From Vicinamibacterales bacterium (GTDB lineage: Bacteria > Acidobacteriota > Vicinamibacteria > Vicinamibacterales > UBA8438), in the NCBI GenBank assembly GCA_029940535.1, contig JAPYUM010000020.1, positions 1 through 55,335 on the forward strand: 55,335 bases of DNA, written 5' to 3'. This document shows positions 11,801 to 13,741 of the stretch, one piece after another. Every line of letters begins with the position of its first letter. Within the stretch, counting starts at the first letter, position 1. The notes below the pieces were generated by a model. The model was not told where the DNA came from, did not search any database, and worked only from the letters and a program-made list of their open reading frames with translations. Both the position numbers and the translations under genes were made by a program.

Positions 11801-12385
<585 letters not shown>

Positions 12386-12552: not shown

Positions 12553-12753
12553 TCAGTCCCAGTCGTCGTCGTCACCGTCGTCGTCTCCCGCCTCCTCAGG
12601 CGGCTCTGTCTCGTCGGCCGGAGCCAGCACCACGGGGGTGAGTACCGCCACTCGAAGATTCGCGCCACAATCTGGGCAACTCAGCAGGTCATCCCGATCA
12701 ACGTCGAATTCGTCGAGCTCGATGTCTGCCGCGCACTGTGTACATGCCGCCAC
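12553..12753 (-). CDS. LysW-like acidic zinc-ribbon carrier protein
   Basis: 66 aa from GTG 12753, chosen because GGAGG lies nine bases upstream; GTG 12762 overlaps that sequence. A CxxC pair at the N-terminus (CTQC) and a second pair (CPDC) about 26 residues later form a zinc ribbon. The C-terminus is a run of Asp ending DDDDWD. This is the architecture of LysW/ArgW amino-group carriers, whose last residue is normally Glu in an EDWGE-type tail. Here the tail ends in Trp-Asp. No lysine or arginine synthesis genes are nearby. The resemblance is good but the function is unproven. Confidence 0.6.
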   Translation of the reverse strand: MAACTQCAADIELDEFDVDRDDLLSCPDCGANLRVAVLTPVVLAPADETEPPEEAGDDDGDDDDWD

Positions 12754-12894
12754 GCTGCTCACCCTCCAACAAGGCCCCGGATGGTGGTACGTTCAGAACG
12801 CGGCACGCGGCTGACGTCCTTCCGTACGTGACCATTCTGACCCGTAATGCCGACCGCGACGACGACGGAAGCCACCAAAGTTGCGAGGGGCGGG

Positions 12895-13021: not shown

Positions 13022-13741
13022 ATGAGCGCGGCCGTGGCCCGAACCCTACTCATCGCGACGGACAACGTCGGCGTACGTGAGCGGTTTTCCGAAGCGTTGC
13101 GACAGGCCGGACACCGCGCGGTGGGCGCCGGAGACGCGACCACCTTGCACGGCGCGCTGGCCCGCGAATCGCCCGCCGTGGATCTGATACTCCTCGACCT
13201 GTCCTTGGGAGACGGTCCGGCGGTGATCAAGCGGGTCCACGAGCAGGCGCCGGGACTTCCTATCCTCGTATTCAGCGGATCCGTCCACGGCGCCGCTGAC
13301 GTCCGCGTGCTGGCTGCGCTTGGCGTGACCGGGTACGTCAACGAGCATTGCGACACGGACCACATCCTCCCGGCGCTCGCACCGCACCTCTTCCCGGACA
13401 ACTTCAATCGTCGCGGGAGCCCGCGGATCGACCTGGCGGTCCCGGTGTCCTATCGTGTCGACGATGTCGTCGCGGCCGCGCTGACACTGAATCTGGGTGA
13501 AAGCGGTCTGGGGATCAGAACGATGAACCCGCTCGATGTGTCGACGACGGTTCGCGCCCGGTTCCGGCTGCCTGGGTCGACCGGCGAGATCGAGGCAGAG
13601 TCGCGCGTCGTCTGGCGCGATCGGCGAGTCGGAATGGGTCTGCAATTCGAGCAAATGGACGCAAGTGACCAAACGACCATTGATGAGTATGTCGACCAAC
13701 GCCACCGCGCTGGTCCACCGCACCCCGAACCAGAGCGCTAG
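13022..13741 (+). CDS. Response regulator receiver domain fused to PilZ domain
   Basis: 239 aa. REC domain (1-120) has the phospho-acceptor Asp59 in LILLDLSLGDG and an acidic pocket reduced to ATDN. The usual Lys of the last loop is missing (TGYVNEHC). PilZ domain (125-230) has RRGSPR, fitting the RxxxR c-di-GMP motif. The second motif is GESGLG, where D/N-x-S-x-x-G is usual. This would link a phosphorelay to c-di-GMP-dependent behaviour such as motility or adhesion. No histidine kinase is adjacent. The TAG stop directly abuts repeat A1. Confidence 0.8.
   Translation: MSAAVARTLLIATDNVGVRERFSEALRQAGHRAVGAGDATTLHGALARESPAVDLILLDLSLGDGPAVIKRVHEQAPGLPILVFSGSVHGAADVRVLAALGVTGYVNEHCDTDHILPALAPHLFPDNFNRRGSPRIDLAVPVSYRVDDVVAAALTLNLGESGLGIRTMNPLDVSTTVRARFRLPGSTGEIEAESRVVWRDRRVGMGLQFEQMDASDQTTIDEYVDQRHRAGPPHPEPER

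Follow-up and report, generated by a model that had tools for sequence, protein, structure and literature searches.

A LysW-derived zinc-ribbon protein of the Vicinamibacteria with a Trp-ended acidic tail, and the pairing of related genes with LarE

TtuA and TtuB are a PP-loop [4Fe-4S] sulfurtransferase and its small sulfur-carrier protein, the latter being ubiquitin-like with a C-terminal Gly thiocarboxylate. TtuA has been compared with LarE, in which a CxxC-C pattern marks the [4Fe-4S] type (PMC9283937). In the canonical amino-group carriers LysW and ArgW, the terminal EDWGE is recognized by a GSWGR motif, and the terminal Glu is required, as the ArgW mutation E54A abolishes arginine synthesis (PMC10433800). 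The window, i.e., the whole stretch of 55,335 nucleotides that was analyzed, codes for a protein related to these carriers, with the following features:

12553–12753, minus strand: LysW-like (type 2) protein of 66 aa, with a GTG start at 12753 and a TGA stop
12763–12767, minus strand: Shine-Dalgarno sequence GGAGG, 9 nt upstream of the GTG start (12753)
12733–12744, minus strand: first zinc-binding pair, C-T-Q-C, both Cys invariant in alignment A1
12667–12678, minus strand: second zinc-binding pair, C-P-D-C, both Cys invariant in alignment A1
12556–12618, minus strand: acidic C-terminal tail, ...DDDGDDDDWD, the Trp penultimate and its position conserved across type-2 tails
11801–12385, minus strand: pal (OmpA-family peptidoglycan-associated lipoprotein), the next gene downstream; 120.4 bits to TIGR02802 (cut-off 125.35)
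13022–13741, plus strand: REC-PilZ protein, the divergent neighbor; 56.5 bits to TIGR02266, under the cut-off of 68.7

The longest reading of the frame runs from 12553 to 12762 on the minus strand (69 aa, GTG start), but the GTG at 12753 is the better start, because GGAGG lies 9 nt upstream and the resulting MAACTQC... aligns with the MAVC or MATC of relatives. The dN/dS values against six relatives fall between 0.14 and 0.27, and the gene is therefore under purifying selection. A scan for promoters and terminators found none. The protein scores 38.5 bits against PF21344 (Zn_ribbon_LysW), above the cut-off of 27, and 30.5 bits against the LysW equivalog model TIGR01206, below its cut-off of 53.2, where the canonical LysW of the class reaches 67.6 bits; all four of its Cys are invariant in the alignment, and the nearest solved structures are those of LysW (3wwl and 5k2m). 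The open reading frame is a real gene by its PF21344 score, its orthologues and its dN/dS, and the Shine-Dalgarno sequence and the starts of relatives favor its end at 12753.

The genome from which the window comes is 97% complete, and in it no second LysW, no RimK-family ATP-grasp protein over the cut-off and no LysX or ArgX with GSWGR were found, whereas the control LysX genes do carry that motif (all nine of the canonical ones read in the class). The best of the weak ATP-grasp matches (C55:4677) is a divergent RimK-like protein with 50.6 bits to TIGR00768 (cut-off 143.4), which sits on a different contig, next to a PepSY-like membrane protein, and has no GSWGR (G000:C55:3177-5398, L213); a second weak match is PurD by reading of its sequence. 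Lysine can be made through LysA (lysA match, 432 bits) and arginine through ArgJ (argJ match, 415 bits). Around the LysW-like gene itself no operon of LysX, LysZ, LysY, LysJ or LysK was found, its neighbors being pal and the gene for the REC-PilZ protein. Thus, a sequence-only reading of this DNA, which had described an orphan LysW-like protein with two CxxC pairs and a DDDDWD ending, flanked by pal and a REC-PilZ regulator and with no LysX, LysZ or similar genes nearby, is upheld on each of these points, and the search that it proposed for LysX/ArgX-type ligases and further LysW copies turned up no such ligase with GSWGR and no further copy in this genome.

Both neighbors recur elsewhere. Synteny places pal beside the LysW-like gene in the window's own family and in several others; in the window, its product has a very long Pro-rich stretch after the signal peptide (12180–12310). 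The REC-PilZ protein, an orthologue of which scores 54.1 bits against PF07238 (PilZ), is a conserved divergent neighbor at 31 loci of the same LysW-like type; it was considered as a functional partner and set aside, as it is not seen in the loci of families f16, f17 and f19 (families are numbered here with f, the window's own being f1).

Orthologues of the window protein were recovered by a single-sequence search in 121 of the 193 genomes of the class, and the same kind of search in named genomes returned one relative only (PAUN01000069.1). A profile of type 2, the type of the window protein, matches 169 of the 193, though it also picks up other LysW paralogues, and types were assigned by reading 100 loci and further ones. 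Three types can be told apart in this way. Type 1 proteins end in EDWGE or DWGE and are encoded in LysX-LysY-LysZ-LysJ operons in which the LysX and LysZ models pass their cut-offs; type 2, to which the window protein belongs, carries a long acidic tail that differs among its members in length and in ending; and type 3 is tailless, 48–56 aa long and seen in f16 only. A tree of the domain, built on a short alignment of 47 columns, separates the three types with the minimum number of label changes, and the window protein groups with the type-2 domains (it scores 73.4 bits against a type-2 profile built with it included). The window gene is best read as a member of a LysW-derived paralogue family that probably stands outside amino-group-carrier biosynthesis. 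Other LysW-like loci take different courses: the type 3 genes of f16 (L117, L119, L121, L123, L125, L128, L130, L132, L134, L137) form a well-supported clade of their own and are mostly convergent with genes that read as STAS-like and SurA/PpiD-like; what looks like a collapsed LysW operon is seen at L051 (G171:C98:9410), where a canonical LysW start leads in frame into the final part of a LysJ/ArgD-like aminotransferase; and L135 (G011:C226:32947) codes for a protein of 296 aa that has a zinc ribbon, LysW-like or other, at its N-terminus and a receiver-like domain at its C-terminus.

In most families, type 2 is followed directly by LarE. At least 100 of the 193 genomes have a type-2 gene directly 5' of a LarE gene on the same strand and within 500 bp, and such pairs occur in families f2–f13, f16 and f19 and in several orders, with one further pair in another class. 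In 34 of the 47 pairs inspected, the type-2 stop and a possible LarE start share 4 bp. LarE itself passes the TIGR00268 cut-off in 163 of the 193 genomes, and the paired LarE proteins have SGGxDS, RCxxCK and a third Cys. LarC is present in 158 of the 193, the window genome included, and the nickel-pincer route is therefore likely to be real in the class. No LysX-type ligase with GSWGR was seen beside the type-2 genes inspected, and when paired and unpaired LarE were compared for specificity-determining residues, no basic patch suited to docking stood out, the net charges being similar. No LysW-like partner of LarE is described in the literature searched, and no link between LysW and LarE was found in the literature naming both.

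The overlap with LarE bears directly on how the protein ends. The last residue of the orthologues can be E, D, N, S, T, A, H, R, K, Y, F or W, and the relatives of the window protein within its genus end in WD or WN. Terminal Glu is found in 38 of 41 paired type-2b tails as against 2 of 20 tails in the window's family, a descriptive comparison among relatives that are not independent. In the overlap GA[G/A]TGA, the third base of the final sense codon doubles as the first base of the LarE start codon, and so an acidic last residue must be Glu; confounded in this manner with the start codon of LarE, the Glu is not necessarily an acceptor, and its change to Asp in the window lineage, which has no overlap, therefore needs no acceptor chemistry on Asp. 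What is strongly kept is the Trp: in the 85 type-2 tails of the class it lies within the last four residues in 52 of 54 cases, with 9.1 expected if its place were random, and the Trp-acidic end is a real feature of type 2.

These observations sort out the options that the sequence-only reading had left side by side. Its comparison of orthologue tails, now made, yields varied endings. An Asp-accepting carrier was dropped as the leading interpretation, for the terminal residue varies, the loss of Glu goes with the loss of the LarE overlap and no LysX-type ligase with GSWGR was found in this genome or beside the type-2 genes inspected. A plain zinc-ribbon protein is nearer the mark than a carrier, yet this description is incomplete in view of the strongly conserved position of the Trp and the class-wide coupling to LarE. 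Similarly, varied orthologue tails lacking Trp-acidic ends, or the lack of an ATP-grasp partner in any genome, had been named as grounds for giving the idea up; what was found goes largely against a carrier role and leaves standing the Trp-acidic end, which is common. Together, this suggests that type 2 is a helper protein and not an Asp-accepting carrier.

The window's own lineage departs from the paired state. Its LarE is encoded on contig C187, away from the type-2 gene, and this is true of the whole of f1 as sampled. Together with those of f14 and of one f12 genome, the LarE proteins of the window's family make up a clade (100/100) that falls outside the clade of paired LarE of the same order (47 rows), which on this phylogeny would be explained by replacement of the paired LarE by one from another lineage; an old LarE paralogy may also underlie it. 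Within the family some tails are eroded and end in AKPFH, ERD or EFD, and no type-2 copy is detectable in four genomes (G167–G169 and G181). Elsewhere, f12 genera with neither LarE nor LarC over the cut-off still have type 2 in the same position, with DDWDE retained and most tails ending in WDE, and type 2 is also kept without LarE in f15, f17 and other classes. Relatives in other classes are mostly found in gene contexts unrelated to these, their last residue being W, Y, F, E or another, and in the other classes of the phylum LarE stands beside only one of the 20 loci fetched. In a set of 18 acid-tailed orphans from other classes (L193–L208, L210 and L211), 11 carry an aromatic Y, F or W among their last four residues. 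The retention of type 2 in f12 genera without LarE and LarC implies a role beyond LarE and counts against LarE as its strict partner; with the cases from f15, f17 and other classes, it weakens LarE as the key partner.

The explanation preferred here, which is regarded as having an even prospect of being right, is that type 2 is an adaptor derived from LysW that acts non-covalently and docks through an acidic tail ending in Trp, that LarE is its likeliest client and that it has been orphaned in the window lineage. The zinc ribbon would provide the folded part and the Trp-ended tail would dock on partners in the way that EDWGE does on LysX, such that the protein, small and acidic, would act as an adaptor that carries no covalent load. 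LarE, the PP-loop enzyme of the tri-Cys [4Fe-4S] type that inserts sulfur for the nickel-pincer cofactor, would be the likeliest client wherever the two genes are coupled; in the window lineage, the gene would have been uncoupled from LarE, its tail eroding, with a LarE-independent role keeping it in the genome. The family assignment, the gene neighborhoods, the tail statistics and the LarE clade behind this reading are computed results, and the mechanism is inferred. Against it, one of the many acidic residues of the protein might still bear a covalent load. Tentatively, and with an appreciable though lesser chance, the protein might instead have a general cellular role unrelated to LarE, e.g., in metal buffering or in docking to a housekeeping machine by way of the acidic tail, in which case the adjacency of type 2 and LarE may be an old gene order and not a sign of function. 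This would sit well with the intact-tailed type 2 of the LarE- and LarC-free f12 genera, with the acid-tailed relatives and the near absence of LarE beside the loci fetched from other classes, and with the unlinked gene of the window's own family; however, so tight a pairing, with the 4-bp overlap in most inspected pairs, and its spread over many families, several orders and one other class go beyond what an order passively inherited would lead one to expect while the other neighbors turn over.

The remaining alternatives assign the protein to carrier chemistry or to decay. It is unlikely that type 2 is a true amino-group carrier of another substrate, its terminal Asp or Glu being loaded by an unrecognized ATP-grasp enzyme. 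The LysW fold, the EDWGE-like end and the frequent Glu of the paired type-2b tails fit such a carrier, and the window genome does have the one divergent RimK-like protein noted above; but the latter lies on another contig next to a PepSY-like neighbor and has no GSWGR, the terminal residue is not conserved across the family and is confounded with the LarE start where it is Glu, and canonical carriers need that Glu, as ArgW E54A illustrates (PMC10433800). Somewhat more improbable still is the idea of a gene in decay, left over from a LysW pathway that has been lost: the eroded tails and the four genomes with no detectable copy point that way, but the dN/dS of 0.14–0.27, the intact Cys pairs and Trp within the window's own genus and the keeping of the gene in most of the family speak against it. 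At the far end of the scale, and very improbable, is a covalent or sulfur-carrying partner of LarE, wherein the PP-loop enzyme would activate the C-terminal carboxylate of the LysW-like protein and the resulting thiocarboxylate or adduct would supply nickel-pincer synthesis with sulfur or substrate, i.e., a LysW fold acting as a TtuB-like carrier.

If the link with LarE is functional, the non-covalent adaptor would be a new partner for nickel-pincer cofactor synthesis, one not found in the literature searched, and the overlapping gene pair could be directly expressed and tested. There is also a consequence for annotation: type-2a loci of f16 can pass TIGR01206 (e.g., L129, with 58.2 bits against 53.2) though their neighbor is LarE and they are not part of a LysX operon, and type-2 proteins over this equivalog cut-off are probably misnamed 'lysine biosynthesis protein LysW'.

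Set against the described systems, the window protein shares with LysW and ArgW (LysW of T. thermophilus, 3wwl, and of T. kodakarensis, 5k2m; ArgW of Natrinema) the zinc ribbon of two CxxC pairs and an acidic tail with a Trp near its end. It differs from them in ending with WD and not WGE, in its longer DE-rich tail and in missing the TIGR01206 equivalog cut-off, and its genome differs in that no GSWGR-bearing LysX or ArgX was found and lysine and arginine are made by other routes. The LarE that follows type 2 is of the same CxxC-C type as that of T. maritima, which inserts sulfur in the nickel-pincer nucleotide pathway and is of the [4Fe-4S] type; known LarE systems, as far as the literature searched goes, have no described LysW-like partner, and the LarE of the window genome is unlinked to type 2 and belongs to a clade other than that of the paired LarE. 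The nearest functional analogy is TtuA/TtuB, in which a PP-loop sulfurtransferase likewise works with a small partner, but type 2 differs from TtuB in being a zinc ribbon whose acidic end varies.
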